NCBI GenBank assembly: GCA_020348925.1
Contig: CP070758.1
Location: 3,191,438 to 3,227,882, forward strand
Length of the DNA stretch: 36,445 nucleotides
Reading direction: 5' to 3'
From: Gemmatimonadota bacterium
Lineage (GTDB): Bacteria; JBHIER01; G020348925
Shown: positions 1,228-36,445 of the stretch, in pieces
Layout: each line of letters opens with the position of its first letter
Position numbering within the stretch: the stretch's first letter is position 1
Notes under the pieces: model-generated
Databases searched by the model: none
The model's input: only the letters and a program-made list of their open reading frames with translations
Told to the model about the DNA's origin: nothing
Program-made: the position numbers and the translations under genes

Positions 1228-1410
1228 AGAGGGCTAAAAAGAAAAACCTCTCGAATTTGACGTTTGAAGGTTGTCCCCGGAGGTTGAGGCTACTTGCCGT
1301 GACCCCTCGTTGGATCGGGGGCGAGCAACGACAAAAAACCGAAGGTGACTATAAAAACCCTTTACCGTATTGAGGTAGGGTGAGTTTTTCGAATTTAGCC
1401 CTCTTTTTCT
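1228..1410 (+). ncRNA. ssrS: Probable 6S RNA
   Basis: A region of about 180 nt between two genes has a long-range closing stem. GAGGGCTAAA at 1229-1238 pairs perfectly with TTTAGCCCTC at 1394-1403, and GAAAAAC at 1241-1247 pairs with GTTTTTC at 1384-1390. A T-rich tail follows at 1404-1413. The length and rod-like fold fit 6S RNA, which binds sigma70 RNA polymerase by mimicking an open promoter. Two internal stretches resemble the E. coli molecule: GTCCCCGGAG near 1273 (E. coli GUCCCCUGAG), and GCAACGACA followed by ACC near 1325 (E. coli GCGACGACA). The naming rests on remembered similarity. That it is a structured RNA is firmer. Ends are approximate. Confidence 0.62.
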
Positions 1411-1448
1411 TTTCTGGATATCGACCGTTCGTTGCAATTTTCACTCTT

Positions 1449-1478
1449 TTGATGATCGTCAAGAGCATAGCGTATGAT
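1449..1478 (+). promoter_or_regulatory. Possible promoter for the MBL-fold gene
   Basis: TTGATG at 1449-1454 and TATGAT at 1473-1478 are separated by 18 bp, about 64 nt before the ATG at 1542. The -35 is poor. It would explain separate expression of the hydrolase downstream of the 6S-like RNA. Confidence 0.22.
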
Positions 1479-1541
1479 CATCGATTATTCCGAAGCCGCC
1501 CCTGTATTCCTCATATCATCATGCGAGGTGAAGGTTTCATA

Positions 1542-2318
1542 ATGCCAAAATTCGTCGTCGTCGGATCGGCTTCCGGCATGCCCGTGCCCGAGAGAACCCA
1601 CGCTTCCCTTCTCCTTGATACTGAAAAACAATGCTATCTCTTCGATGCGGGTGAGGGATGTTCATCTTCTCTGTTACGATGTAGAATAAACCACCACAGG
1701 ATCGGTGTAATCTTCATATCGCACATGCATCCCGACCATTGCACCGGGTTGCCTATGCTTCTCCAAATGATGTACCTGGGACAAAGGACCGCTCCACTGG
1801 AAATTTACATTCCCCAAGAGGGGACTGTGGCTCTCGCAGAGTGGCTGTCCAATATTTATATCTTTCCGGAGAAACTCCCTTTTCCCACTACTATAGAACC
1901 CATTCACTCTGGGACTTTTTTTCTTAATAATACCGCCCTCACTATTACGGCCTTCTCGAACTCACACCTTCAAGGATATCGCGACCTTGTGTCGTCACAC
2001 TATCCCCAAAAAACTCTGGAGAGTTATTCCTTTAAAATTGAGTGGAATAAAAAGACCGTTGTCTACTCCGCGGATCTTTTCTCCTTGAACGACATCATCC
2101 CGTACAGTCAAAACATCGATCTTCTCTTCATCGAGGGAACTCATATAGACATTGAGGACATCCTCTCGTTTCTCGTAGAACAACATGTTCGGAAAACGGT
2201 TGTAACCCATATACCTCCGGAGCTCGAGGGTCAGGAAGATCACGTCCGTTCACTCGCATCAAAATTGGGGGTCGCTTCCATTCGTTTAGCTTTCGATGGA
2301 ATGGAGGTTTCACTGTAA
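1542..2318 (+). CDS. MBL-fold metallo-hydrolase (RNase Z-like)
   Basis: This 258-residue protein has the metallo-beta-lactamase fold signature. It begins with MPKFVVVGSASGMPVPERTH, which resembles the RNase Z/ElaC opening strand and a GTG/GSG-type loop. The metal motif HMHPDHCTG follows at residues 61-69 (HxHxDH), then DAGEG upstream of it, S-N-S-H-L, YSAD, EGTH and a final VVTHIPP strand that supplies the last histidine. Members hydrolyse phosphoesters, lactones or RNA. The substrate cannot be read here, and the length is that of a short stand-alone hydrolase rather than full tRNase Z. The frame is open upstream to 1380, but GAGGTGAAGG at 1525-1534 and domain alignment favour ATG 1542; the longer form would run through the 6S-like RNA. 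Confidence 0.75.
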   Translation: MPKFVVVGSASGMPVPERTHASLLLDTEKQCYLFDAGEGCSSSLLRCRINHHRIGVIFISHMHPDHCTGLPMLLQMMYLGQRTAPLEIYIPQEGTVALAEWLSNIYIFPEKLPFPTTIEPIHSGTFFLNNTALTITAFSNSHLQGYRDLVSSHYPQKTLESYSFKIEWNKKTVVYSADLFSLNDIIPYSQNIDLLFIEGTHIDIEDILSFLVEQHVRKTVVTHIPPELEGQEDHVRSLASKLGVASIRLAFDGMEVSL

Positions 2319-10632: not shown

Positions 10633-11514
10633 ATGAGTGAAGAGAAGAAATACGTCCCCTTTTTCGGGTGTATGATTTCCGTGAAATATCCTCAATTTGA
10701 AGCCGCGGTGAGGAAGACCATGTCCAAAGTGGGAATGACCCTCGTGGATCTCGACGGCTTCACCTGCTGCCCGGATCCGATCTATTTTAAGTCCTCGGAT
10801 AAGTTGACCTGGTTGACCATTGCGGCCAGGAACCTCTGCATCGCTGAGGAAGCCGGATTGGATATAACCACCATGTGCAGCGGATGCACGGCCACGCTTT
10901 CCGAGACGAGATATCATCTGGCTCACGATGAGGCTTTGAAAAAGAGGGTTAACCAGCGACTCAAAAAGATCGGGAAAGAATACAAGGGGACCGTCTCGGT
11001 GAGACACATCGTGACCGTTCTCCGGGACGACATCGGCATCGATAAGGTGGTTGCATCGGTCGTCAAACCGCTCAACGGTCTTCGCGTTGCTGTCCATTAC
11101 GGCTGCCATCTTCTCAAACCGAGTAAAATCATGCAGGTCGATGATCCCGACCGACCGACCATTCTGGAGAGACTTCTGGAGGCCATCGGCGCCGAGCCCG
11201 TTCAGCATGACGCCAATCTGCTGTGCTGCGGCAAAGCGTGCATGGAACCGGATATGCCCGCACAGATGACGTTCGACATACTCACTTCCATCAAGAGAAC
11301 GGACGTCGATTGCATGGGTCTCATCTGCCCGACCTGTTTCGACGCCTACGACCTGGGACAGATTAAAATTTCCAGACAATTCAAGACCAAGTTCGATATT
11401 CCCATCATTTACTACTTCCAGCTGCTGGGCTTAGCCCAAGGTCTGAGCCCTGAGGATGTGGGATTGAATATGCACAAAATCATGCCAGAACCCTTGCTGG
11501 CGAAAGTTGCGTGA
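10633..11514 (+). CDS. hdrB: Heterodisulfide reductase subunit B-like protein
   Basis: A 293-residue protein with two CCG-type cysteine domains. The first shows [11 protein letters not shown], a TCCPDP element and MCSGC; the second shows [17 protein letters not shown] and [12 protein letters not shown]. In HdrB these cysteines hold two non-cubane 4Fe-4S clusters that perform disulfide reduction. In the first domain the double Cys sits in TCCPDP rather than the common CCG, and the second keeps CCGKACM, so ligands appear present. The physiological disulfide is unknown; CoM-S-S-CoB is not expected outside methanogens. Gap to the hdrA1 ATG is 10 nt. Confidence 0.88.
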
Positions 11515-11524
11515 GTCTAGAACA

Positions 11525-14500
11525 ATGACTGAAACGGAAACCAAAGGCGTTCTTGTTATCGGCGGAGGAATTGCCGGGATCCAGGCCGCCCTCGATCTGG
11601 CCAACTCCCGGGTGAAGGTATACATGGTGGAGAAGGCACCCAGTCTGGGCGGCCGTATGGCCCAACTCGACAAGACCTTTCCCACCATGGACTGCTCCAT
11701 ATGAATTTTGGGGCCGAAGATGATGGATGTCGGTCGACATCCGAACATTGAGCTGTACACCTATTCGGAAGTCACTCACGTTGAGGGAAAAGCCGGCGAT
11801 TTCAGGGTGACGGTCCGCAGGCACCCGAGATACGTGGACGAAGACCTGTGCACAGGCTGCGGTCAGTGCTCCGACGCTTGTCCAATAGTGGTCCCCAACG
11901 AGTTCGATGCCGGGCTCGGAGCCCGTCGAGCGATTTACTCGCCCTTTTCTCAAGCAGTTCCAAACACCTTCGTCATCGACAGAGAATCGTGTCTCAACGA
12001 CGACTTCCTCGTCTGCGAAAATTGCAGAAAGGCATGCGAACGGGACGCCATCAATTATGATGTGGCACCACAGGACGTGACGATCAGCGTCGGTTCACTC
12101 ATTGTAGCCACAGGCATCGATGTCTTCGATCCGTACACGATGAAGACCTACGGGTACAGCGTTTCACAAAACATCCTCACCGGTCTCGAGTTCGAGCGCA
12201 TGCTCAACGCCTCCGGACCGACGCAGGGTCATGTCCTGCGACCGACGGATCGGCGGGTGCCGAAAAAGATCGCTTTTGTCCAGTGCGTCGGCGTTCGGGG
12301 TGAAAACGACTGCCAGTACTGTTCTCTGTTCTGCTGCATGAATTCGGTCAAAGATGCTTTGCTGGCCAAAGACCATGCCCCTGAGATCGAGGAGATCACC
12401 ATCTTTTACTCCGACATACGGGCCTTCGGGAAGGGATACGAATCATTCTACAATCGCACGAAAGAGCGAGATTATATCAAATATTTCAAGGGCAAACCAT
12501 CGAAGATCGTCGAAGATCCGGCATCTCATGATCTCACAATATATGTGGAGGACACACTGACTGGGAAACCTATGGAGGTCGTATCCGATATGGTCATTCT
12601 GGCTTCTGCCGGTCTGCCGTCTTCGGACACCTTGAAATTGGCAGACGTGTTAGGTATTGAACTGGGCCAGGATGGTTTCTTCAAGACGGAAAAGGAGAAC
12701 GCACAGCTCCTTCGCTCAACGAAGGAAGGCATCTTTCTTTGCGGGTGCGCTTCAGGCCCGGAAGACATCCCTGATTCCGTGGCTCAGGGCTCCGGAGCTG
12801 CCGCCGGTGCGGAAAAGTATGTGGCCGATTTCCGGCTGCCAGAAACCGAAGAGGAGATCACACCGATCGATGTGGGTGGTCCACCTCGCATTGGTGTTTT
12901 CCTGTGCCACTGTGGCATCAACATCGCCGGTGTTCTGGACATCGAAACAATGGAAGAATATGTGAGAAGCCTACCGAACGTCGTTCATGTTCAGAATGAT
13001 CTCTTCCTCTGTTCGGACGGGAGTCAGAAACTGCTTCAAGAAATGATCAAAGAGCACCGATTGAACCGGGTCGTATCCGCTGCCTGTACACCGAGGACCC
13101 ACGAGCCGATCTTTCAGGAGACGTGCGCCCGCATCGGGCTCAATCCATACCTCTTCGAGATGGTCAACGTGCGCGACCAGTGTTCCTGGGTTCATTCTCA
13201 AGAACCGCTTCTCGCCACACAGCGGGCCATGGATCAGATACGGATGGCCGTCGCCCGGGCCCAATGGCTCGAGCCTCTGGAACAAAAGGAGATCTCCGTG
13301 GAGGGATCGGTCCTCGTCATCGGGGGCGGCCCGGCAGGAATTCAGAGCGCCCTCGATCTGGATGCACAGGGGTTTCCGGTCACCTTGGTGGAAAAGGAAA
13401 AAGAGTTGGGTGGGCGATTGCGATTTTTGGACAGGCTCCTACCGGAAAATGTGCCGGCGGTGGATCTCCTCCAGCGCAAACTGGCTCAGCTAAAAGCCAG
13501 CGGTGTGAGGGTTTTTACCGAAACAGAGATCAAGGAAGTGGGCGGCTTTGTGGGAAACTTCGAAGTGAGCACGACGAAAGAAACGCTCAAAGTCGGTTCC
13601 ATTATTCTGGCCAGCGGCTCTGACGTGTACGATCCGAAGGATGAGTACGATTATGAAAAATACTCCAATGTGCTGACCAACATGGATCTGGAGGGGATTT
13701 TCGCCCAAACCGACGGTGGTGAGGCTCTCATCAACGGTACAAAACCCAAACGGGTGGCTTTCATCCAGTGTGTCGGCTCACGAAATGAGGACAATCCCCA
13801 CTGTTCCCGCATCTGCTGTCCGACAACGGTGAAACAGGCTCTCCGGTTCAGAGAACAGGGGACAGATGTTGCAGTGTTTTATCGCGACATGAGGACGGTG
13901 GGCCACGGGGCCGAGGAGCAGTACCGCGCAGCCCGGGGGGTGGGCGTCGTCTTCATTCGATACCCCGACGACCAGAAACCTGTGGTGACAAAAAGCGGAA
14001 AAGGTCTTCGCATTCAAGCCTTCGGGACAATGCTGAACGACACCGTGAATATGGAGGTGGATGCCGTCATTCTGGCCGCCGGAATGGTTCCCAAAGAGCC
14101 TGATACGAATACGTTCAAGGAGATGTTAAAAGTGCCCAGAAGCCCGGACGGTTTCATGATGGAGCGCCATCCGAAACTCGGGCCGGTGGAAACGACAACC
14201 GACGGGATTTTTCTGGCAGGCTGCGTGCAGAGTCCCAAAAGTGCGGCCGAATCCATGGCCCAGGCCTCGGCCGCGGCCGGCAAGGCGGCCTCCCTCGTCT
14301 GCCGGGAGAGGATCAAACTCGACCCGACCATCTGTAGGGTGAACGAAGCTCTCTGCCGGGGATGTAGAACGTGCGTCTCCATCTGTGATTTCCACGCGCC
14401 TGAATTGGTTGAGACATCTCCCGGAATTTTTGTAGCACGCATCAACGAAGCCTTGTGCAAAGGCTGCGGAACCTGCGCCGCCTGGTGTCCGACGGAGGCG

Positions 14501-14572
14501 ATCGCCGCCCAGCATTTCACCGATCAGCAGATCGAGGCCATGCTGGAGACGATGTTGGAGGAGGGATTATAG
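11525..14572 (+). CDS. hdrA: Selenoprotein HdrA, large two-lobed form (one in-frame TGA = Sec60)
   Basis: Read through one TGA at 11702-11704, this is a 1015-residue HdrA. Before the TGA comes the FAD motif [17 protein letters not shown] and [18 protein letters not shown]; after it, in the same frame, [15 protein letters not shown]. In Cys-type HdrA this is DCSxC-IL-x-PKM-x-x-VGRHPNI, so TGA replaces the conserved Cys. An 18-nt hairpin with GGTC loop lies 20 nt downstream (11725-11742). Next come a ferredoxin insert ([12 protein letters not shown]), a first flavin lobe, then near residue 395 an HdrA N-terminal domain ([16 protein letters not shown]-like [10 protein letters not shown]), a second FAD lobe ([17 protein letters not shown]) without the CxxC motif, and two C-terminal 4Fe-4S motifs (CRGCRTC, CKGCGTC). 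HdrA is the flavin centre that splits or merges electron pairs. The two-lobe form may hold two FADs. Confidence 0.9.
11702..11704 (+). other. Selenocysteine codon (TGA) of hdrA1, residue 60
   Basis: This TGA lies in an uninterrupted HdrA alignment, at the second Cys of the DCSxC motif. Neither frame nor domain is disturbed on either side, which argues against a pseudogene. Confidence 0.88.
11725..11742 (+). promoter_or_regulatory. Bacterial SECIS hairpin of hdrA1
   Basis: GGATGTCGGTCGACATCC folds as a perfect 7-bp stem with a GGTC loop, starting 20 nt after the TGA. A short stem whose loop carries GG (GGUC, as in E. coli fdhF) a small distance past the UGA is the SelB recognition pattern. 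It encodes the conserved DVGRHP residues, and the same 18 nt recur exactly in hdrA2. Confidence 0.78.
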
Positions 14573-16351: not shown

Positions 16352-18820
16352 ATGGTTGAAGATGAACGCCGAATAGGTGTCTTTGTTTGTGAGTGCGGAA
16401 TCAATATCTCCGCCACCGTCGATTGCGATGAGGTCACCGAGTACGCGAGAACCTTGCCCGATGTGGTCTTCTCCATCAAGAACAGATACACCTGTGCCGA
16501 ACCGGGCCAGGAGGAGATCAAAAGGTTTATCAAAGAGGAGAACCTCAATCGGGTCGTCGTCGCATCCTGCACACCTCGCATGCACGAGCCGACTTTCAGA
16601 CAGTGCTGCGCCGACGCCGGCCTCAACCCCTACCTCTTTGAGATGGCCAACATCCGGGAGCACTGCAGCTGGGTGCACCACGACAGAAAAGAGGCCACGA
16701 AAAAGGCGAAGGATACGATCAAGTTGGCCGTGGCACGGGCGAGAAAACTTGAATCACAGGAGGAGCTGACAGTCCCCGTCACCCAGGCCGCCCTCGTTGT
16801 CGGAGGCGGCATAGCCGGAATGCAGGCTTCCCTGGACCTGGCAGATGCCGGCTATCAAGTTTATCTTGTCGAGAAGGAGCCGACCATTGGGGGGTTGATG
16901 TCTTATATCAATAAGATCTTCCCCACAATGGACTGAGCGATATGAATCCTCGGTCCGAGGATGATGGATGTCGGTCGACATCCCAAGATTGAACTTCTCA
17001 CTTATTCGGAAATAGAAAACGTCACCGGTTACATCGGCAATTTTCATGTCAATGTTCGCAAGAAGGCCAGGTATGTGGATGAGGACGCCTGCACCGCCTG
17101 TGAAAAATGTGCCGAGGTGTGTCCTGTTGTGGCCTTCGACGAGCATCAATTGGGATTGGCCTCGAGGAAAGCCATATATATTCCCTTCCCCCAGTCTGTC
17201 CCGGCCTCATACCTCATCAACATGGAGGATTGTCTCGGCACCAATCCGATTGCCTGCGGGAAATGTTTGGAGGTCTGTGATCCGAAGTGCATTGATTACG
17301 ACGAGAAAGACAGTATCATCGAACTCGACGTCGGGGTCATCATTGTGGCCACGGGAATGGATGTGATCGACCCGACCGTTCTGGATGAATACCATTACAC
17401 GGAGTTCGAAAATGTCATGACTTCCTGGGAGTTCGAGATCCTGACAGGTCCCGGCTATGTGACCGGCAGCGAACTTCTCAGACCGACCGACCGCAAGGTT
17501 CCAAAATCCATCGGGTTTATCCAGTGCGTCGGTTCTCGGGACGATAAGAGAGGCCATCCTTACTGCAGCAACATCTGTTGCATGAATACGGTCAAAGACA
17601 CCCTCTACCTCAAGGAACATTACCCCGATATGGAATGCTACGTCTACTACATGGACATCCGAACCTTCGGAAAGCAATACGAAGACCTGTATAAACGCAG
17701 CAAGGAGATGGGCGTCAGGTACATCAGAGGCATCCCCGGTGACGTCGAGGAGGACCCGGAGACCAAGAACGTGATAGTGGCTGTGGAGAACACGACCACC
17801 GGAAAGCTTGAACATCACGAGCTGGATATGCTGGTGCTATCCGTCGGCGTCGAACCGCGGGTCGAGACGGCGGATATTCAGAAAATCTTGACCCTCTCGA
17901 AAGCCCCCGACGGTTTCCTGGCGGAAAGCCACTACCAGCTCAATCCCATCGATTCGCCGACCGGAGGCATCTTCCTAGCCGGATGCTGTGAATCACCCAA
18001 GGACGTGAAGGGATCCGTCACCCAGGCATCCGGTGCGGCAGCACGGGCGGAGCGGCTCCTCAGTCAGCGGAGGGTCAAGGTGGAGGCCATCACCTCCGAG
18101 ATCGATCCGGATCTGTGCACCTCGTGCGGTATCTGCGTGAAAGTCTGTCCCTATAAAGCCATCCGGATCGAAAAGAAGAAGGCTCCGGCGGAAGTTATTG
18201 AGGCGGCGTGCAAAGGGTGTGGCACCTGCGCTGCAGAGTGCAAGTTCGGAGCCATCACCATGAAACACTTCACCGACGATCAGATCCTCTCCATGATCGA
18301 TGCCATGCTCGAGGAGAAACCGGAGGAGAAGATCTGCACCTTTGCCTGCAACTGGTGCTCCTATGCCGGGGCGGATCTCGCAGGCCTCTCGAGAATCCAG
18401 TACCCGCCCAATGCGAGGATCATACGAACGATGTGCAGCGGCCGCGTGGATGAAAAATTCATCTGGTACGCTTTTCAGAAAGGTGCTCCGGTGGTCCTGG
18501 TTTCAGGTTGCCATTTCGTTGACTGCCACTACATCGATGCCAACAGGTGGACCCAGAAGCGGATTGAAAAAATATGGGACAAGCTGGAACAGAAGGGTAT
18601 TCGCCCCGAGCGGTTGCAGCTCGAGTGGTGCTCAGCTGCCGAAGCCAAGAGATGGCAAAGCATAATGCGTGCGGCCGAAAACTTGAGAAAAACAGTATCA
18701 AAGCAAGAGATTGAGGAGACGATACGGATCCTCAGCAATGGAGACAAACCAAAAACAAAGGCGAAGGCTGAGGCGAAGGGCAAGAAGAAGCCCAAAGTGA
18801 CAGCCGCTTCATCGGAATAA
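16352..18820 (+). CDS. hdrA: Selenoprotein HdrA-MvhD fusion with two in-frame TGA codons (Sec195, Sec198)
   Basis: Read through TGA at 16934 and TGA at 16943, the gene encodes 822 residues. Order: HdrA N-terminal domain (GVFVCECGIN, ASCTPRMHEP), FAD motif VVGGGIAGMQASLDL (about 150-164), the motif MD-U-A-I-U-IL where Cys-type HdrA has DCSxC-IL, then [13 protein letters not shown], a ferredoxin insert (CTACEKCAEVCP), the flavin-domain remainder (IQCVGSRDD), two C-terminal 4Fe-4S motifs ([23 protein letters not shown]), and from residue 662 a complete MvhD domain (CNWCSYAGAD, MCSGR, SGCHFVDCH). A Lys/Ala-rich tail ends it. Start and end halves are exactly in phase (16352 to 16961 is 203 codons). 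Both halves are conserved, so read-through is the economical explanation. AGGGAG precedes ATG 16352. Confidence 0.88.
16934..16945 (+). other. Two selenocysteine codons, TGA-GCG-ATA-TGA, residues 195 and 198
   Basis: Both cysteines of the HdrA DCSxC motif are TGA here. In hdrA1 only the second is. The U-x-x-U spacing is that of a redox or metal-ligand pair, and no frameshift is needed to join the flanking HdrA segments. Confidence 0.82.
16948..16960 (+). promoter_or_regulatory. Candidate SECIS hairpin for the first TGA of hdrA2
   Basis: CCTCGGTCCGAGG is a perfect short inverted repeat with GG at the 5' side of its loop. It begins 11 nt after the first TGA (the spacing remembered for E. coli fdhF) but only 2 nt after the second, so it can serve only the first. 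The matching part of hdrA1, which has a single TGA, lacks this hairpin. Confidence 0.55.
16966..16983 (+). promoter_or_regulatory. SECIS hairpin for the second TGA of hdrA2
   Basis: The same 18 nt as in hdrA1 (7-bp stem, GGTC loop) start 20 nt after the second TGA, identical spacing to hdrA1. It lies 29 nt after the first TGA. Confidence 0.75.
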
Positions 18821-19246: not shown

Positions 19247-20392
19247 ATGGTAACGAAAGAAAAAAACCGAATACGAGTGATGACGGGCAATGAGGCCTGT
19301 GCGGAGGGTGCTCTGGCCGCGGGTTGTCGCTTTTTCGCCGGTTACCCCATAACCCCTTCTTCAGAGATCGCTGAGATCCTGTCGCGGGAACTTCCGAAAG
19401 TTGGCGGTAAGTTCATTCAGATGGAGGATGAGATCGCTGCCATGGGCGCCGTCATCGGTGCTTCCCTTGCCGGATCCAAATCCCTGACGGCTACGAGCGG
19501 ACCGGGCTTCTCGCTGAAACAGGAGAATATCGGATACGCATCGATGGCCGAAGTCCCGTGCGTCATCGTCAACGTCATGAGAGGCGGACCGAGCACAGGG
19601 TTGCCGACCCTTCCCTCGCAAAGTGACGTCATGCAGGCCCGCTGGGGCACCCACGGAGATCATCCGATCATTGCCTTGGCACCTTCGAGCGTGCGGGAGT
19701 CTTTTGACTGGACTGTGCGAGCTTTCAACCTATCCGAAACATACCGAGTACCGGTTGTTCTTCTCTTGGATGAAATTGTCGGCCATACCAGTGAAAAAGT
19801 TGTGCTTCCGGATACGAGCGAGATACAAATTGTGGAGCGCCAAAAGGGTGATCCGAAAAACAAGGATTACCTCCCCTATAAACAGACGGAATCGGATATT
19901 CCCCCCATGATCAGTTTCGGAGAGGGCATACGGTTTCACGTCACAGGTCTCTGTCACGATGAAACAGGATTCCCAACCAACGATTCCCAAAAGATCGACC
20001 TTCTGCTCCGTCGGCTCAATCGGAAAATCGAGCGTTATCGTGACCAGATCACCGACAACCAAAGGGATCAACTCGATGACGCGGATGTGGCCGTCTTTGC
20101 TTACGGTTCAACGTCCCGCTCTGCCCGCTGGGCTGTTCGCCGAGCCCGGGAAGAGGGTCTTCGTGTCGGTCTGTTTCGACCGATCGTCCTATGGCCATTT
20201 CCTGAGGATGAAGTGTTCTCCATCGCTCAAAAAGTGCATCACATCATTGTTCCGGAGATGAACCTGGGACAGATGGCTCACGAGGTGGAATGGGCCAGCC
20301 GAGGTTCGACCGACGTTATTCGAATCAACCGTATTGATGGTGATCCTGTGCGACCACAGGTCATCCTCGAAAAAATCAAAGAGGTTGCTTAG
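19247..20392 (+). CDS. 2-oxoacid:ferredoxin oxidoreductase, alpha subunit 2
   Basis: A 381-residue paralogue of the protein at 7496, sharing EGALAAGCRFFAGYPITPS, QMEDEIAAMGAVIGASLAG, TSGPGFSLK and RGGPSTGLPT. It carries the pyrimidine-binding and C-terminal transketolase-like domains. The copies are clearly diverged along their length, so they probably differ in 2-oxoacid preference (2-oxoglutarate versus branched-chain or other), which cannot be decided from motifs. ATG 19247 follows CTGGAGA. Confidence 0.86.
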   Translation: MVTKEKNRIRVMTGNEACAEGALAAGCRFFAGYPITPSSEIAEILSRELPKVGGKFIQMEDEIAAMGAVIGASLAGSKSLTATSGPGFSLKQENIGYASMAEVPCVIVNVMRGGPSTGLPTLPSQSDVMQARWGTHGDHPIIALAPSSVRESFDWTVRAFNLSETYRVPVVLLLDEIVGHTSEKVVLPDTSEIQIVERQKGDPKNKDYLPYKQTESDIPPMISFGEGIRFHVTGLCHDETGFPTNDSQKIDLLLRRLNRKIERYRDQITDNQRDQLDDADVAVFAYGSTSRSARWAVRRAREEGLRVGLFRPIVLWPFPEDEVFSIAQKVHHIIVPEMNLGQMAHEVEWASRGSTDVIRINRIDGDPVRPQVILEKIKEVA

Positions 20393-20393
20393 C

Positions 20394-21203
20394 ATGTTTG
20401 ATTACGGAGCCTATTTGCGCAAAGACAAATTTCCACTTATTTGGTGTTCCGGCTGCGGCGATGGAATTGCCCTGAAGGCAATGCTGCGGGCCATCGATCG
20501 GATCGGCCTCTCGAAAGATGAAATCGTCATGGTTTCCGGCATCGGTTGCTCGAGCCGGCTGCCCGGTTACGTCGATTTCAACACGCTGCACACCACTCAC
20601 GGTCGAGCGATTGCTTTCGCCACCGGTGTAAAGATGGCCAAACCGGAGCTTACCGTCATCGTGGTTACCGGCGACGGTGATGCTACAGCCATAGGTGGAA
20701 ATCATTATATACATGCGGCACGACGAAATATCGATCTGACGGTGATTCTATTCAACAACTGGATCTACGGCATGACAGGCGGTCAAGTTTCCCCCACAAC
20801 TCCCTTTGGCAAACGAGCCAGCACTGCTCCCTACGGCAGTACGGAAAACGCTTTCAACATCAGCGGTCTGGCCGAAGCTGCCGGGGCCAGTTTCGTCGCC
20901 AGAGAAACAGTATTCAGACCACAGGTTCTGGACAAGTTTATTGAAAAGGCTATCCGGAAAAAGGGATTTTCGGTCGTGGAGGTCTTCACACCCTGTCCGA
21001 CAACATACGGTCGCCGGAACAAAATGCGGTCTGTCATAGAAATGATGAATTGGCTCAAGGATCATGCTGTTCCGAAGAGCCGTGCCGAGAAAATGGACCC
21101 GCAAGAGCTGGAGGAAAAAATCATCACCGGAGTGCTTGTCGACCTCGATCTCCCCGAATACACCGAAGAGTATCAAAAGCTAATCGATCGAGTCAAGTCA
21201 TAA
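20394..21203 (+). CDS. 2-oxoacid:ferredoxin oxidoreductase, beta subunit 2
   Basis: A 269-residue thiamine-diphosphate subunit starting 1 nt after the alpha stop (TAG-C-ATG). It shows IWCSGCGDGIALKAM (CxxC ligands), VSGIGCSSRLPGY, THGRAIAFATGVKM, GDGDATAIGGNHY with NNWIYGMTGGQ (ThDP/Mg site), and PTTPFGKRASTAPYG. It is about 25 residues shorter than KorB1, mostly at the N-terminus. An open frame upstream of 20394 overlaps the alpha gene and is not part of the domain. Confidence 0.87.
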   Translation: MFDYGAYLRKDKFPLIWCSGCGDGIALKAMLRAIDRIGLSKDEIVMVSGIGCSSRLPGYVDFNTLHTTHGRAIAFATGVKMAKPELTVIVVTGDGDATAIGGNHYIHAARRNIDLTVILFNNWIYGMTGGQVSPTTPFGKRASTAPYGSTENAFNISGLAEAAGASFVARETVFRPQVLDKFIEKAIRKKGFSVVEVFTPCPTTYGRRNKMRSVIEMMNWLKDHAVPKSRAEKMDPQELEEKIITGVLVDLDLPEYTEEYQKLIDRVKS

Positions 21204-21296: not shown

Positions 21297-21842
21297 ATGA
21301 GCTTTCGAACCGAAATCCGACTAAGCGGTGAGGGTGGCCAGGGATTGGTTTTGGCTGGGAAAGTCTTGGCCGAAGCAGCGGCCATATATGACGACAAGAA
21401 CGCTACCCAAAGCCAATCCTACGGCCCTGAGGCGCGAGGAGGTGCGAGCCGTTCGGAGGTCATCATCTCCGATGATGAGATCGACTACCCCAAAGCGGTC
21501 AATTTGGATCTGCTCTTGGCCCTGACCCAGGAGTCCTGCAGTCGATATTGGAAGGATTTAAAGGACGACGGTATACTCCTCGTCGATTCAGATTCAGTCA
21601 AGGACATTCCTGAGGGTTCGTTCAAAGTATTCAAGGTACCGATCATTGCTATCGCAGAGCAGGAAGTCGGAAAAGCTCTGGTGGCAAATATCGTTGCCCT
21701 TGGGATCATCACCGGCCTGGCCAAGGTCGTCTCCGAGGAGGCAGTGGAAGCGGCAATCCTGGCGAGAGTCCCGAAGGGCACCGAGGAACTCAATGTGAAA
21801 GCCTTCAAAGCCGGATTACAGGCAGCCAAAGATCTCAGTTAA
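21297..21842 (+). CDS. 2-oxoacid:ferredoxin oxidoreductase, gamma subunit 2
   Basis: A 181-residue gamma subunit with IRLSGEGGQGLVLAGKVLAEA and the family segment ATQSQSYGPEARGGASRSEVIISD. AAGGAG lies 6 nt before ATG 21297. Unlike copy 1 it has no Lys/Ala tail. The 93-nt gap from the beta gene contains AATAACTG (near 21209) and CAGTTATT (near 21256) followed by a run of T, a possible attenuator with a long loop, weakly supported. Confidence 0.87.
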   Translation: MSFRTEIRLSGEGGQGLVLAGKVLAEAAAIYDDKNATQSQSYGPEARGGASRSEVIISDDEIDYPKAVNLDLLLALTQESCSRYWKDLKDDGILLVDSDSVKDIPEGSFKVFKVPIIAIAEQEVGKALVANIVALGIITGLAKVVSEEAVEAAILARVPKGTEELNVKAFKAGLQAAKDLS

Positions 21843-21870: not shown

Positions 21871-24800
21871 ATGTTCGATCCCTACACTCGACTCGAGGCC
21901 CGAGTCGGAGAACTGGGTAACCATCACCGAAAATATCTGAAGAACATATCAGCGCATAAGGACACGTTGATCGATCGCCTGGAAGCCTGCGGTAAGATCG
22001 ATCAGGTCCACTTCCGCCTGACCGCCCCCGATCTCGCCAGCGAAATGGACACGGTCATGGCCGTTGGCCGGAATGTGGAGGAGAAACTTACCTTTCTGGG
22101 CTGCTATTATGCCCTCCAGTTCCTCAACATGAACATCAGTGCCATCGATGTGCTTGCCCTCAATCTGGCAACTTCGGACGACAGGTATACCGTCTACAAA
22201 GGATTCATGAGACAGATTGGGAATGAGTTCAGGGCGCTAACCGCCTGTCACATGGATAAGCTCCTGAATCTCTTTCTCGACAAGAACGGCACCCCGGAAT
22301 ATGTGATCTGCGGGGTCGGCACGCGGGCCGATCAGGATGATATTGATGTGGGGATTATTGATGATGGATCGCGAAAACGAAAAGATCTTAACCTCGCCGT
22401 TGGTCGACTCCAGCACAGTATGCTCAAGCAGTCGGTTCCCCTCCACCTCTACCTCTCCGAACATGTCGGAACGCAGAGTTATTCCGCCTCGATCGCGGAG
22501 TATAACGACCTCCTCAAAAAAGAGATACAGGATTTCGTCATTATCACTGAGATGCTCGGGGCAGCCCCCATCACCGGAAGCAACCATCTCTTTCGAAAAT
22601 TCAGACGGGAGGTCACCCAGCGCTATTACTATCAGCGACAAGGTGACAACCGTTTCCATGAAGGCTATTTGCGGGGCCTGCTGGGCGAGGTCAGATCGCT
22701 CTTGATCAGGAGGATGAAGACGAACAGTATCAATCCCAAGGACGACGGTTTGCGGATGCTCAAGGGACTCCTCTTTGCAGGCAAATCCATTTTCAACATT
22801 CGAAAAGTCAATGCCTGGGATATTTTAAAACAGTTGGGGGAACGCGATCCCGACCATACGGAGATATTTCAAACTCTCGACAGATCCCTCACTTTTCTGG
22901 AAATGTTCAGATTTCTCTATCAGCTCTTCGTTGTTCAAGAGGACGAAATTTATGTGGGTGGAGAGGACACCATTTCGAACTTGCAATCCGTAGCCAAAGC
23001 CATGGGCTACCAGGATGTTGGGGTCATCAAAGCCTGGGATCACCTGCTCATCCACTACTATGAGCATATAGACGGCATAAAAGATCCCATCGAAATTCTT
23101 CTCAAGGACGTAATACGACATCTGGAGCGAATAAGTGTCTTCTCGGTAATGCTCAGCACACGTCAGCTTGAAACACAGTACGAGGGGAATTTGGTTATAG
23201 ATTTTCTAAAGGCTTCCCGTTTTTTCAGGGGGACGAAATTCTGGGACGATGTTCTGGGAGCCCTTGAAACAGGAGATGGACAACTTTTGGAGCGATTCGT
23301 AACCGACTTCAACTCCCTGGACACAGAACGAAGGATCAAATGGATCGCTCAGTACGCAGACTGGAGCAACTATGCTTTTATGGTCCTCATGAGGCTGCTC
23401 GTCATCCTGTATCAAAACAGGAAAAAGGTTGCTTCAGAAAAACTTTTTAACGAACTCAACGAAGCTTCACTGGAGGCGCTGAGCCAGAGTCATGATGTTA
23501 TTCACAGAATAACCCGTATCTTCAACCATTATCCGAAACTGGTCAATAATTACTTGTTGGCACTATCCGAGGAAGATCAACTCAGGTTTAAGAAGCTCCT
23601 TGAGGGAAATGTCTGGGAGGAGGAAGTGGCTCAGTTGAGAGATCACCTGGTGAATCTCTGTCAGCTTCATTGTTGTAGTAATAGATATTTCAAACGTTTT
23701 TTTCAAAGAATTATCAATGCGTATCCTGAATACATTCAATACTTGGATAATACGGATCGGTTAAAAGAGTTGGCCAAGGGTCTTTTCGGGAAGATCGATA
23801 ATCTGAAAACCTTTCGCGAAAAAAAAGATCAGCTTGGGCATTATCATGATATCGAATTCTTTCGGGTGGGCCTTGAGACATTGGCCGGTGCTCCTATAGA
23901 ACAAACCAACGCCGAGTTCACGGAATTTTCAGACAACTATCTTCAAACGCTTTTCGATATCTGTAAGCAGGAGGTGGAACAGGAACGCGAGGGAAAATTG
24001 AAGACGGAAGATCTCTTGGCCGTCTTTGCGGCAGGCGGACATGCCCGGGAACAAGCTTTCGATGATGACTACGATATTATTGTTCTTCTGAATTCAAGCG
24101 ATGAAGCCTTGAGAAAAAAATGTACAACCATCATCAGTAAGATGAATACCGAGCTTGTCAAACGGGGAACACTCCCCCACTTCCGTTTTGCGGAGCGGTA
24201 CGGCCACTACGTCACACTTTTTTCAGAACTCGAAGAACTCTTCGAAAGTAATAAAGAGGATTCATTTATCGACAAATCCCAAATTCTCGGAGCAAGAATG
24301 GTCGTGGGCAGCCGGAGATTCGGAAAAGCTTTTGAACAATTGATCATACAACCCCATATATACAATAAGAAAGATACCTATATTCAGCAGATGGCACAGG
24401 AGATTTTTGCTCGCCATGTGAATGAAAACGGGGTCAAGGAAGATGGTTTCAACATCAAAGAGAATAGCGGAGGACTCCGTGATATTGAAATGGTGATGCT
24501 CATGTACAAAGCAGCTCTTCATATTCAGACCCCCGTATCTATGAAATTGTTCGATGAGCTATCGGACAAGATTCCAGACAAAGGTTCTGAGCTGAAGCGG
24601 TTGTCCGGAATCTTCTCTTTTCTGAAACGCCTGCGCGACATATACCGCCTTACGGTGGCTGCCGAAGATACCATATACCTTCAAAACCTCGATAGGGTAT
24701 CACCCATTATGAATTTTAAGGATTCGTCGACACAGAGCGCTTCCCAGCAACTCATGATGGCATACAGAGAGAATATGAAACAGGGATGGTCTCTTGTTTC

Positions 24801-24876
24801 GGAGTTTATCTCGGATATCGGGCATCACCCTGCACGTGAGATAAGGGATACCGCAATCCAAGAGAACACCCCATGA
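21871..24876 (+). CDS. Large protein with two nucleotidyltransferase-like domains (GlnE/GlnD-related)
   Basis: A 1001-residue cytoplasmic protein. Two NTase-fold signatures are visible: GVGTRADQDDIDVGIID at 148-164 and AAGGHAREQAFDDDYDIIVL at 720-739, each a glycine loop followed by acidic metal ligands. Near 861-871, NIKENSGGLRDIE matches the KE-x-x-GGLRDIE element that follows the NTase domain in GlnD (PII uridylyltransferase) and GlnE (glutamine synthetase adenylyltransferase). The long middle part (about 260-700) is helical. A tandem NTase protein near 1000 residues recalls GlnE, but the GSxARxELxxxSDxDL motif is not exact, so I call only the superfamily. It starts 28 nt after the Kor gamma gene with GAGGAAAAG upstream, so it is co-transcribed with an enzyme set whose substrate may be 2-oxoglutarate. 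Confidence 0.6.
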   Translation: MFDPYTRLEARVGELGNHHRKYLKNISAHKDTLIDRLEACGKIDQVHFRLTAPDLASEMDTVMAVGRNVEEKLTFLGCYYALQFLNMNISAIDVLALNLATSDDRYTVYKGFMRQIGNEFRALTACHMDKLLNLFLDKNGTPEYVICGVGTRADQDDIDVGIIDDGSRKRKDLNLAVGRLQHSMLKQSVPLHLYLSEHVGTQSYSASIAEYNDLLKKEIQDFVIITEMLGAAPITGSNHLFRKFRREVTQRYYYQRQGDNRFHEGYLRGLLGEVRSLLIRRMKTNSINPKDDGLRMLKGLLFAGKSIFNIRKVNAWDILKQLGERDPDHTEIFQTLDRSLTFLEMFRFLYQLFVVQEDEIYVGGEDTISNLQSVAKAMGYQDVGVIKAWDHLLIHYYEHIDGIKDPIEILLKDVIRHLERISVFSVMLSTRQLETQYEGNLVIDFLKASRFFRGTKFWDDVLGALETGDGQLLERFVTDFNSLDTERRIKWIAQYADWSNYAFMVLMRLLVILYQNRKKVASEKLFNELNEASLEALSQSHDVIHRITRIFNHYPKLVNNYLLALSEEDQLRFKKLLEGNVWEEEVAQLRDHLVNLCQLHCCSNRYFKRFFQRIINAYPEYIQYLDNTDRLKELAKGLFGKIDNLKTFREKKDQLGHYHDIEFFRVGLETLAGAPIEQTNAEFTEFSDNYLQTLFDICKQEVEQEREGKLKTEDLLAVFAAGGHAREQAFDDDYDIIVLLNSSDEALRKKCTTIISKMNTELVKRGTLPHFRFAERYGHYVTLFSELEELFESNKEDSFIDKSQILGARMVVGSRRFGKAFEQLIIQPHIYNKKDTYIQQMAQEIFARHVNENGVKEDGFNIKENSGGLRDIEMVMLMYKAALHIQTPVSMKLFDELSDKIPDKGSELKRLSGIFSFLKRLRDIYRLTVAAEDTIYLQNLDRVSPIMNFKDSSTQSASQQLMMAYRENMKQGWSLVSEFISDIGHHPAREIRDTAIQENTP

Positions 24877-24915: not shown

Positions 24916-24945
24916 TTTATTTATTTTTCAGGGAGTTTGACAGTA

Positions 24946-25389
24946 ATGATCGAACAAACACTCATGTTGATTAAACCTGATGGCGTCCGTTCAAACCGAA
25001 TCGGCCAAGTCATCAGCAGAATTGAAAAGGAGGGATTTCGTATTTGTGGCATGAAGATGCTTCGGCTTCAGCCTGAAACAGCGGCCGAATTCTATGCCGC
25101 GCATCGAGAAAAACCATTTTACGCCGATCTCCTCACTTTTATGGTTTCGGATCGCATCGTGGCTCTCGTTCTGGAGCGAGAGGAAGCTGTGACTCGTTTG
25201 AGGGAAGTCATCGGAGCCACAGATCCGGCCGAAGCAGCTGTGGGAACGATCCGAAAAAAATTGGCTTCAAACAAACAGGAAAACGTTGTGCATGCCTCCG
25301 ACTCTTTGAGCAATGCTCAGGTAGAGACGTCTTTCTTTTTCAGCCGTGAAGAGTTACTGTCCATGCTGAAGAAATCCACCATGCCGTAA
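24946..25389 (+). CDS. ndk: Nucleoside diphosphate kinase
   Basis: A 147-residue enzyme that equalises nucleoside triphosphate pools via a phospho-histidine. It opens with MIEQTLMLIKPDGVRSNRIG and carries catalytic His116 in NVVHASDS, the usual NxxHASDS motif. ATG 24946 is chosen over TTG 24937 because AGGGAG at 24930-24935 is correctly spaced only for the ATG. It is the first gene after a promoter and heads a ribosome/lipid gene cluster. Confidence 0.93.
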   Translation: MIEQTLMLIKPDGVRSNRIGQVISRIEKEGFRICGMKMLRLQPETAAEFYAAHREKPFYADLLTFMVSDRIVALVLEREEAVTRLREVIGATDPAEAAVGTIRKKLASNKQENVVHASDSLSNAQVETSFFFSREELLSMLKKSTMP

Positions 25390-33028: not shown

Positions 33029-36000
33029 CTACCTCAAAAGCGTCATCCGTCTTGATTGTACCTGTGTACCCGTCCTGAGCTGTGCAATATAAATGCCGGA
33101 GCTGAGCCGTCTGCCGAACCAATCCGTACCATTCCAAAAGATATTGTAGTTACCCACATCTTTTCGTTCATCAACAAGGCTTGCGACTTCCTGACCGAGT
33201 ATATTGTATACTTTTATCGTAACCCACCCACTCCTTGCTACGGTGAAGACTAAGTTCGTTTCTGGATTAAAGGGATTGGGATAGTCCTGAAACAAAGAGA
33301 ACTCTTGAGGCTTGACTCCGAGCTTCAACTCATTGCGACCGATCTCAATAGGCAGGGAAACTCCGTCCGCACTTACGGCAAGAGCCTCAGTGATGTGAAG
33401 CTGCTCTCCTTCTCTCAGTTTCTCGTGAGCAAGAAATTCAAGGATCACCATTGGACCCGTTCCCGAGGAAATACACTCACCGTCAAGACTATAGAGCAAT
33501 ACGGTGGCTTCTTCTCGGCCAAAGGCACTGGCCAATGTCATTTTTTCACCTCGTCCTGCATTCCGGATCGAGCGAATATCGACATGGCTCTCGAAGCCAA
33601 TTTTCATCTGGAATCCGGAGAGGGGTATGATACTCGTATATTCAATCGGTACGGTAAAGGTATTGCTCTCACTCTTTTCAACGGCGCCGACCTCAATGAG
33701 AGAGGGTGTGCATCCCATCTTGGCACCGGTTCCTCCCTGGTCGAGAATATTCGCAATGAGGTAGGTAACATCCAAAATATCGACGTCGCCATCTTTATTA
33801 CAATCCGCTGCACACAGCTCGTAACCCTGTGGTATATGAATATCCAGGATGATATTGACAATGATAACTGCATCCAAGACGTCGATACTCCCGTCCAGAT
33901 TCAGATCCCCGGAGGATGCTATTGCGGCCGTACCATTCTGGGTATTGATTGGAAGGGCAATCCCCAACCCATCCTGAAGTTCTGCGATATGAAAGTGAAG
34001 GGAACTCTGATCACCCCCTGAAGCCATGGTGTTCATGATCATTAAAATCTCGGCAATGGAACCTTCACCTCTGGGTAAGCTCTCACCGTTTCCGTCGTTA
34101 ACACGTATCACAATCTGGCCGTCTCGAGGTTTTGACCATTGAAAACTGCTCATTCCCGAACTTCGCGACGTGGGAGCAACATCCACGACATTCACGACCG
34201 TCGGATTATAAGATAATTCCGTGTATATGTGACATATCGTTTTCCCGTTGCTGTTGAGATCCATGTGCGCTCCGACCAAACCACCGGGCTCACCGCAGCA
34301 GTTGGGAAGTGCAAGCACAGCAGGCTGCGAATCAACGCCTGTGCCTTCAACAGTAGAGATTACTATTTCCTCATCAGGATCGTTGCTCCAGATTGAAATC
34401 GTGCACGACTCAAACCCCAGCTCCGAAGGACAATAGGTCACTTCTATGATTCTGCACCCCATTGGAGGAATTTCAAAGGGTACGACTGGAGTTTGGATGT
34501 CAAAATCAGTGCAATTTGAAAGTATCGAGCTTACGTTCAAAGGTGCAGTTCCGCTGTTGGACACACTCAATTGAACATCCTCGCATGACCCAACATGAAC
34601 ATCTCCGAAGTCATAGTCCTCGAATGAGATATCGATATCAGGAAGAGAACCGTTCGCTCCGTATCCTGACAGAGATACCGTCACAAAATTCTCATCAGGA
34701 TCATCGCTGCTGATGATCAGCACACCAGAGTGGTATCCTGTGGCTGATGGTGAGAAGGATACTGTCATGACAACACATTCCGAGGGATTTATCATCCACG
34801 GCAGAGCCGGTGAAGAAGCGCTGAACATCCCTATATCCAGATCTCTGCCAGACACAGTCAAGAGTGCATCACCCACATTGCACACGGATATCTCAGCGTA
34901 ACCAGTACTATTCATGGTAACATAACCGAAACTGTAACTGAGAGGACTAACTTCAATTGCCGGTATTTGTAACGAAGCCCCCTGTCCGACTACTGTGACA
35001 GACTTGGCGGGCTCATCAGGATCATTGCTGCTCAAGGTGAAGGAACACGTATATATCACATCCGAGACCGGACAACATTCAATGATCACATCGGCATACT
35101 CAGCCGAATCAAGATCAAGAGGAAAAGCGGGAGACGTAATCGTGTAACCCTGGCATCCCTGGCTGACAGGAGCCAAAGTCAATATTGCATTCCCAGTATT
35201 TCCAATTTGAAAAGTCCAGGAGACACAGTCGCCGACTGTGACCGATCCAAAATCATGATAGGTTTGTGAGACGTCAATATCAGGTTCCCCCTCAGAGTCG
35301 CAAGCATCGCCGATGCCATCCTGGTCTGAATCATTTTGATCCGGATTAAACGTAAAGGAACAGTTGTCCGCATCTCCGCAGACACCATCACCGTCCATAT
35401 CGTTTTGAGGATCAGCCGGACAGTTGTCACAGCCGTCAGGAATACCATCGCCATCAGCGTCCTGTAAATCGTCAAAACCGGGACAGATATCAAAACAATC
35501 TGCCACACCGTCCCAATCGCTGTCAGTGTCAGGCACACCGCAGCCACAAATACCAGGATTATTCTTGTCGGGATCGACAGGACAGTTATCGTTGCAGTCC
35601 GGTGTCCCATCACTGTCACTATCAGTGTCGGCGACATCACAACCACAGACTCCTAAATCTACCTTGTTCGGATCACTCGGACAATTATCATCACAATCCG
35701 GCGTCCCATCTCCATCGCTGTCAGTATCAACTACGCCACACCCACAGACTTCTGAATCTGTCTTCTCCGGATCAGCAGGGCAACCGTCGTTGCAATCGGG
35801 AACACCATCACCATCTGTGTCCGAATCAATCACACCACAACCACAAATACCAGGGTCAACTTTTAGCGGATCGTTTGGACAATTATCGCAGGCATTACCG
35901 AACCCATCTCCGTCCGAATCGAGTTGAGCAGGATTTGGGATTGTTGGACAGTTATCATCAGGATCACAGATTCCATCACCATCGCTCTCGGGACAACCAT

Positions 36001-36445
36001 CGCAAGCATCACCAATGCCATCAAAATCAGAATCTGTTTGACCCGGATTAAACGTAGAGGGACAATTGTCTCCATCACCACAAATACCATCATGGTCAAC
36101 ATCGTTCTGAGGATCGGCAGGACAACTGTCACAACCATCTGGAAAACCATCGAAGTCCGCATCCTGCAAATCATCATGGTCTGGACAGATGTCAAAACAA
36201 TCTGCCACACCATCCCCATCACTTTCGGTATCGGCGACACCGCAGCCGCATACGCCAGGATCCGTTTTAGCCGCATCAGCCGGGCAGCCGTCATTGCAGT
36301 CCGGCGTTCCGTCCCCATCGCCGTCCGTGTCGACCACGCCACACCCACACACTCCCGGATCCGTTTTGTTAGGATCAGCCGGACACCCATCATTACAGTC
36401 CGGTGTCCCATCCCCATCACTTTCGGTATCGGCGACACCGCAGCC
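33029..36445 (-). CDS. 5'-truncated modular surface protein: TSP type-3 repeats, choice-of-anchor domains, dockerin, type IX sorting domain
   Basis: The frame is open from the right edge to TAG at 33029, giving 1138 residues in the window; the true N-terminus is outside. Order from the edge: residues 1-384, thrombospondin type-3 calcium-binding repeats rich in DxDxDG and CGCG; about 385-740, three beta-sandwich domains of choice-of-anchor D/ASPM-Hydin type (DFGSVTVGD, SFGYVTMN, DFGDVHVG); a cohesin-like beta domain; a dockerin pair (GDLNLDGSIDVLDAVIIVN and DCNKDGDVDILDVTYLI); another cohesin-like domain; and a C-terminal sorting domain with LFQDYPNPFNPETNL, KVYNILGQEVASL and the SSGIY element. 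That C-terminus directs export and surface anchoring by the type IX system. Calcium binding by the Asp-rich repeats is family knowledge. It converges on the gene at 31711 and ends at a strong terminator. Confidence 0.88.
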   Translation of the reverse strand, partial: GCGVADTESDGDGTPDCNDGCPADPNKTDPGVCGCGVVDTDGDGDGTPDCNDGCPADAAKTDPGVCGCGVADTESDGDGVADCFDICPDHDDLQDADFDGFPDGCDSCPADPQNDVDHDGICGDGDNCPSTFNPGQTDSDFDGIGDACDGCPESDGDGICDPDDNCPTIPNPAQLDSDGDGFGNACDNCPNDPLKVDPGICGCGVIDSDTDGDGVPDCNDGCPADPEKTDSEVCGCGVVDTDSDGDGTPDCDDNCPSDPNKVDLGVCGCDVADTDSDSDGTPDCNDNCPVDPDKNNPGICGCGVPDTDSDWDGVADCFDICPGFDDLQDADGDGIPDGCDNCPADPQNDMDGDGVCGDADNCSFTFNPDQNDSDQDGIGDACDSEGEPDIDVSQTYHDFGSVTVGDCVSWTFQIGNTGNAILTLAPVSQGCQGYTITSPAFPLDLDSAEYADVIIECCPVSDVIYTCSFTLSSNDPDEPAKSVTVVGQGASLQIPAIEVSPLSYSFGYVTMNSTGYAEISVCNVGDALLTVSGRDLDIGMFSASSPALPWMINPSECVVMTVSFSPSATGYHSGVLIISSDDPDENFVTVSLSGYGANGSLPDIDISFEDYDFGDVHVGSCEDVQLSVSNSGTAPLNVSSILSNCTDFDIQTPVVPFEIPPMGCRIIEVTYCPSELGFESCTISIWSNDPDEEIVISTVEGTGVDSQPAVLALPNCCGEPGGLVGAHMDLNSNGKTICHIYTELSYNPTVVNVVDVAPTSRSSGMSSFQWSKPRDGQIVIRVNDGNGESLPRGEGSIAEILMIMNTMASGGDQSSLHFHIAELQDGLGIALPINTQNGTAAIASSGDLNLDGSIDVLDAVIIVNIILDIHIPQGYELCAADCNKDGDVDILDVTYLIANILDQGGTGAKMGCTPSLIEVGAVEKSESNTFTVPIEYTSIIPLSGFQMKIGFESHVDIRSIRNAGRGEKMTLASAFGREEATVLLYSLDGECISSGTGPMVILEFLAHEKLREGEQLHITEALAVSADGVSLPIEIGRNELKLGVKPQEFSLFQDYPNPFNPETNLVFTVARSGWVTIKVYNILGQEVASLVDERKDVGNYNIFWNGTDWFGRRLSSGIYIAQLRTGTQVQSRRMTLLR
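35294..36445 (-). repeat. Tandem thrombospondin type-3 coding repeats with a duplicated 85-residue block
   Basis: About 1.15 kb of repeated DNA. The basic unit is 33 codons (CGCGVxDTDSDGDGTPDCND, then CPADPxKxDPG). A larger 85-codon block beginning CGCGVADTESDGDGVADCFD and ending DGIGDACD occurs twice, once near each end. The right edge of the window repeats, base for base over more than 30 nt, the sequence around 36208-36246. Confidence 0.85.

Follow-up and report, generated by a model that had tools for sequence, protein, structure and literature searches.

NTx2, a GlnE/GlnD-related double nucleotidyltransferase encoded beside the gamma subunit of a 2-oxoacid:ferredoxin oxidoreductase in uncultured bacteria

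A double nucleotidyltransferase (NTase) protein, here named NTx2, is encoded directly after korG2, the gamma subunit gene of a 2-oxoacid:ferredoxin oxidoreductase (Kor), in the window, i.e. the whole analysed DNA stretch of 36,445 nt. NTx2 has two conserved modules and a GlnE-like fold, and its gene adjoins korG and co-occurs with it in other genomes. As the adjacency to kor recurs in many uncultured phyla, NTx2, a distant relative of the enzymes which regulate nitrogen metabolism, probably serves as a hitherto undescribed on/off switch of 2-oxoglutarate:ferredoxin oxidoreductase. We see an even chance that it is a bifunctional protein nucleotidyltransferase which reversibly modifies the adjacent Kor, most likely at KorG.

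Locus and neighbouring genes

The NTx2 reading frame codes for 1001 amino acids and opens with ATG (Table 1). It begins 28 nt after the Kor gamma gene, as the sequence-only reading had stated, since korG2 ends with the stop codon TAA at 21842; the purine-rich GAGGAAAAG precedes the start. The set 5' of NTx2 is a genuine korA-korB-korG set, with POR_N/PFOR_II, TPP_enzyme_C and POR all matched. Farther upstream, the window contains genes for both succinyl-CoA ligase subunits, another kor set and two Hdr clusters, and the linkage to sucCD suggests that KorABG is specific for 2-oxoglutarate. The genome consists of a single contig of 5.04 Mb with seven POR-gamma genes, and korG2 is the one among them directly before NTx2. 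An ndk gene downstream of NTx2 was also found in KSB1 and Caldithrix loci.

Table 1 Features of the NTx2 locus, with positions in the window
Feature	Position	Strand	Remarks
korA2, 2-oxoacid:ferredoxin oxidoreductase alpha	19247..20392	+	POR_N, PFOR_II
korB2, beta subunit	20394..21203	+	TPP_enzyme_C; ORF opens at 20334, ATG likely at 20394
korG2, gamma subunit, proposed partner/substrate of NTx2	21297..21842	+	POR domain; K22, T37, R52
NTx2, two NTase+GlnD_UR_UTase-type modules with an all-helical middle between them	21871..24876	+	
N-terminal module of NTx2, residues 67-430	22069..23160	+	metal-binding D157/D159, E197, K290/R295; shortened glycine loop
Helical linker of NTx2, residues 431-644	23161..23802	+	without Pfam family; modelled entirely as helices with high pLDDT
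C-terminal module of NTx2, residues 645-985	23803..24825	+	GG(x)R...D733-x-D735; KENSGGLRDIE; PF08335 match
ndk, nucleoside diphosphate kinase, 3' of NTx2	24937..25389	+	

Further features of the window were recorded. Both HdrA genes (11460-14572 and 16352-18820) carry in-frame TGA at the conserved CxxC, and HdrA2 reads FPTMD-TGA-AI-TGA-ILGPRMMDVG. The two codons of HdrA2 are probably a double selenocysteine (UxxU). A tRNA-Sec above the Rfam cut-off was detected in the same genome, and HdrA is split in the same way in many relatives. The minus strand codes at 33029-36352 for a protein of 1107 aa with thrombospondin type 3 repeats, ASH/HYDIN-like domains, a dockerin and a C terminus resembling a secretion tail. 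At 1380-2318 (plus strand) a protein with metallo-beta-lactamase fold is encoded, which is RNase Z-like by eye; nothing links it to NTx2. RNase Z was reported as a deAMPylase (PMC12663964).

Modules, family and fold of NTx2

A GlnE/GlnD-like double NTase with motifs about 570 residues apart had been proposed from the sequence, and two complete modules were indeed found. Motif 1 is GVGTRADQDDIDVG (G148-D159), and motif 2, AGGHAREQAFDDDYD (G722-D735), lies 574 residues past it. The element KENSGGLRDIE comprises residues 863-873, and K290/R295 of the N-terminal module are the counterpart of this KExxGGLRD element. D157, D159, E197, K290, R295, D733, D735, K863, G867, G868 and D871 were identical in all 62 aligned homologs, so the motifs do not occur by chance. 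The invariance of all four aspartates of both DxD motifs in this alignment argues that both sites work. Furthermore, the two halves of NTx2 are duplicates (residues 67-417 against the C-terminal module, hhalign E 3.6e-29). The glycine loop is shortened in the N-terminal module (G150 to D157) compared with the C-terminal one (G722 to D733). Thus, the functions of the two sites probably differ, a division of labour which is suggested here by loop length in the sequence.

GlnD_UR_UTase (PF08335) was the one domain found in the Pfam scan of NTx2, at residues 856-971 (E 1.1e-12, 48.6 bits against a cut-off of 21). This domain with KxxxGGxRD, together with the NTase signature GG...DxD, places NTx2 in the GlnD/GlnE-type superfamily, and the protein is predicted to be an NMP transferase acting on protein side chains. 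An AlphaFold model was obtained with a mean pLDDT of 89.9 and a pTM of 0.80. The only PDB matches at E <= 1e-3 in the fold search were the N and C domains of E. coli GlnE (5.9e-9 and 7.1e-8) and DrrA (5e-4), so that the likeness to GlnE first noticed in the motifs holds for the fold as well. The GlnE structures 1v4a and 3k7d were also matched by the NTx2 family profile. The helical middle showed a weak resemblance to helical-repeat scaffolds, and no significant match was obtained in the viral fold library. GlnE and DrrA are enzymes AMPylating or de-AMPylating proteins, and GlnE has a two-module layout in which the modules have opposing activities (PMC12409994).

Distribution and linkage to korG

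Two surveys were evaluated. Among 290 genomes from across the domain a strong NTx2 homolog was present in 15, the genome of the window included, and 79 NTx2 loci were found in a scan covering 84,980 species genomes. With a single-sequence query of genome contigs no matches were obtained; an alignment query was required. The homologs show 26-55% identity and belong to uncultured lineages of many phyla. The record titles of the 79 loci name KSB1, Zixibacteria, WOR-3/Stahlbacteria, Marinimicrobia, Calditrichota, TA06, Latescibacterota, Eisenbacteria, Coatesbacteria and others, and some of these labels may be misbinned because all sources are MAGs.

Upstream of NTx2, on the same strand and within 3 kb, korG was found at 55 of the 79 loci, a count that does not represent independent events, since the relatives share ancestry. 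The spacing is usually 10-150 nt, otherwise about 760 nt with one gene between. Several of the 24 loci without upstream korG are cut by contig ends. The gene order varies. Besides korA-korB-korG-NT, as in the window, korA-korG-NT-korB (L041, L042, L119 and L121) and Hdr genes followed by korG-NT, with korA-korB missing in the stretch retrieved (L082, L109, L112, L114, L115, L120 and L122), were found. Across these orders korG is the constant partner, even where korA-korB has split off. In Eisenbacteria (L036/L124) the C terminus of the NTx2 homolog is fused to an HdrC-like 4Fe-4S domain. With the 55 korG-linked loci and this one fusion, the suspected tie to Kor, and sometimes to Hdr, was substantiated.

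Other neighbours were found in smaller groups. In KSB1/Calditrichota, about seven homologs are oriented divergently to sdhAB instead of lying beside korG, and SdhA and SdhB were confirmed for L077. The divergent members in genomes G076 and G219 adjoin fabG. At L043 and L044, divergent homologs adjoin fabG and a protein of about 105 aa, and the fabG neighbourhood possibly marks another NTx2 target in those lineages. The homolog at L034/L062 (G198) is interrupted by one in-frame TAG, for which a mutation, an error of assembly or another cause may be responsible.

Directly before NTx2, about 18 loci of WOR-3, TA06, KSB1 and Zixibacteria encode a protein of 243 aa (e.g. L060, 6273-7001), which is absent from the window. 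It has an invariant G-A...W-D-x-D and a match to DUF6036 that stays below the cut-off. The model of this protein (pLDDT 90) resembles JHP933, a putative NTase from H. pylori, and to a lesser degree the MenAT1 complex. According to these fold matches, a third NTase joins the NTx2 system in those lineages.

Residues of KorG associated with NTx2

A KorG2 match of at least 200 bits was present in 12 of the 15 NTx2 carriers and in 9 of the 275 other genomes; the Fisher P of 2e-13 ignores shared ancestry, hence does not count independent events, and the thresholds were chosen after the list had been seen. Close Kor homologs are also held by genomes free of NTx2. When Kor subunits with and without NTx2 were compared, no position differed in KorA, and the only differing positions were residues 22, 37 and 52 of KorG and weaker ones in KorB. 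At these three KorG positions nearly all NTx2-linked loci encode K-T-R, and genomes that lack NTx2 encode V/I-V-K. K-T-R is present in KorG proteins with 54-57% identity to that of the window where NTx2 occurs, but absent in those with 61-65% identity where it does not. Genome G045, in which NTx2 is linked to sdh and not to korG, still has K-T-R, whereas G076, G091 and G219 have the ordinary KorG residues despite NTx2. On a KorG tree built without these columns the three residues arose by about one or two changes, which cannot prove co-selection. K22, T37 and R52 thus serve as a marker and indicate candidate contacts, but they are no proof. An acceptor tyrosine specific to NTx2-linked Kor was found neither in KorB nor in KorG, where the conservation of tyrosines does not depend on the presence of NTx2.

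A degenerate KorG is encoded at L112, L114, L115 and L120. These copies have lost the GGQG motif and kept K22 and R52; they are located between Hdr clusters, with no korA-korB nearby. Perhaps they are non-catalytic adaptors.

Proposed role

Kor runs either way, in the oxidative or the reductive TCA cycle. To our knowledge, no covalent control of this enzyme has been described, and the open-access literature yielded nothing relevant on nucleotidyltransferases linked to Kor, nor on its nucleotidylation or adenylylation. By analogy to GlnE, NTx2 would transfer an NMP, probably AMP, onto the hydroxyl of a side chain with one NTase module and take it off again with the other. The C-terminal module with its complete GG..R..DxD loop would be the likelier transferase, and the N-terminal module, with shortened loop and invariant DxD, the likelier remover. 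The gamma subunit KorG would be the most likely partner. The helical middle may couple the two sites and take in a metabolite or redox signal; 2-oxoglutarate is a plausible candidate solely in being the substrate of the enzyme encoded next to NTx2. The nucleotide on KorG might tune 2-oxoglutarate oxidation or reductive synthesis.

A wider reading, which we put forward tentatively and with somewhat less than even confidence, is that many uncultured phyla possess a dedicated, PII-independent reversible nucleotidylation switch acting on 2-oxoglutarate:ferredoxin oxidoreductase via KorG. It would represent a third, independently duplicated GlnE/GlnD branch and would extend in some lineages to the Hdr-linked degenerate KorG.

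NTx2 could also be a protein NTase of the Kor cluster with a target other than KorG, e.g. succinate dehydrogenase, a subunit of Hdr or a number of TCA-cycle redox enzymes. The HdrC-like fusion, the Hdr genes flanking several korG-NTx2 loci and the divergent sdh genes agree with such a target. We regard it as unlikely, as linkage to Hdr or sdh is seen in a minority of loci, korG is the neighbour found most often and the one most resistant to rearrangement, and the sdh-linked G045 retains the K-T-R KorG.

Less probable still is a maturation or assembly factor of Kor, which would bind nucleotide without stable nucleotidylation of a protein, or a modifier of small molecules. Its long helical middle with the weak likeness to scaffolds and the constant link to one subunit would suit an assembly factor. 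Against this, both DxD sites are fully conserved, the sole solved structures within the E-value limit belong to enzymes acting on protein side chains, and close homologs of Kor exist in genomes lacking NTx2.

If the switch on Kor is real, GlnE-type control reaches beyond nitrogen metabolism to a redox enzyme of central carbon metabolism. The conserved GlnE-related partner would be a specific, testable candidate for the control of Kor. Furthermore, a family of about 1000 aa from many poorly known phyla, in which public profiles see one weak domain, would receive an annotation.

Relation to GlnE, GlnD and other known systems

GlnE adenylylates glutamine synthetase (GS) under PII control. Neither PII nor GlnE was found in the genome of the window, so the glnE and glnB genes to be looked for elsewhere in it did not turn up; three GS genes are present. 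Among the 15 carriers, of which some genomes are incomplete, a PII-like match was obtained in four (three above the cut-off) and GlnE in two. Hence, the idea of a reporter of the nitrogen or PII state was not upheld, PII and GlnE being absent here and in most carriers and an ACT domain being absent from NTx2. A replacement of GlnE/GlnD where PII is absent, acting on GS or another nitrogen protein and linked to Kor merely through 2-oxoglutarate metabolism, would fit the shared superfamily, the two-module layout and the GS genes without GlnE and PII. We consider it very improbable: among the loci examined, none had a recognisable glnA or glnB neighbour, and G006 and G091 hold true GlnE and PII together with NTx2.

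That NTx2 is simply a diverged GlnE or GlnD, for which its PF08335 match and the NCBIfam GlnD and GlnE matches could be quoted, is hardly credible and was rejected because of its profile scores and domain content as well as the module tree and the gap in scores. The NCBIfam GlnE equivalog gave 20.6 bits (cut-off 625) and the GlnD model TIGR01693 57 bits (cut-off 519.4), both far below the cut-offs. The GlnE NTase domain PF03710 was matched neither in the Pfam scan of NTx2 nor in its genome, and HD phosphohydrolase and ACT domains were not detected in the Pfam scan of NTx2. In a module tree, which is unrooted and has three GlnE sequences and long branches, the NTx2 halves group together (SH-aLRT 99), as do the GlnE halves (99), with GlnD apart. 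The NTx2 halves are thus each other's closest modules in this tree and not orthologous to the N and C modules of GlnE. The NTx2 family profile gave 478-1434 bits for members compared with 39-119 for GlnE/GlnD. The judgement of the sequence-only reading that this is no ordinary GlnE was therefore supported: there is no full-length GlnE match, and glnA/glnB do not stand beside NTx2 in relatives.

The C-terminal module of NTx2 aligns to GlnD with E 1e-28, or 5e-23 for the NTase and UR region, and to the C module of GlnE with E 5e-18; the N-terminal module is more remote. With GlnE (PF03710+PF08335; PDB 1v4a, 3k7d) NTx2 shares the fold, the size of about 1000 aa and the arrangement of two NTase+helical modules around a helical region. 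It differs by the missing PF03710 match, the independent duplication of its modules, the absence of PII and of linkage to GS, and by being encoded with korG. GlnD, the PII uridylyltransferase/uridylyl-removing enzyme, resembles the C-terminal module in KExxGGLRD and a similar spacing of the glycine loop, but has one NTase module instead of two as well as HD and ACT domains, and its partner PII is absent from the NTx2 genome. The AMPylase domain of DrrA/SidM (PDB 6yx5) has a protein-AMPylating NTase fold (E 5e-4), yet it is remote, a single domain of an effector from an unrelated context. The putative nucleotidyltransferases of DUF294 (PF03445) gave a borderline weak match of 21.0 bits to the C module of the homolog L124, whereas the protein of the window has no PF03445 match. 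A known kind of chemistry would be at work; what appears to be new is the branch, the partner and the independence from PII.
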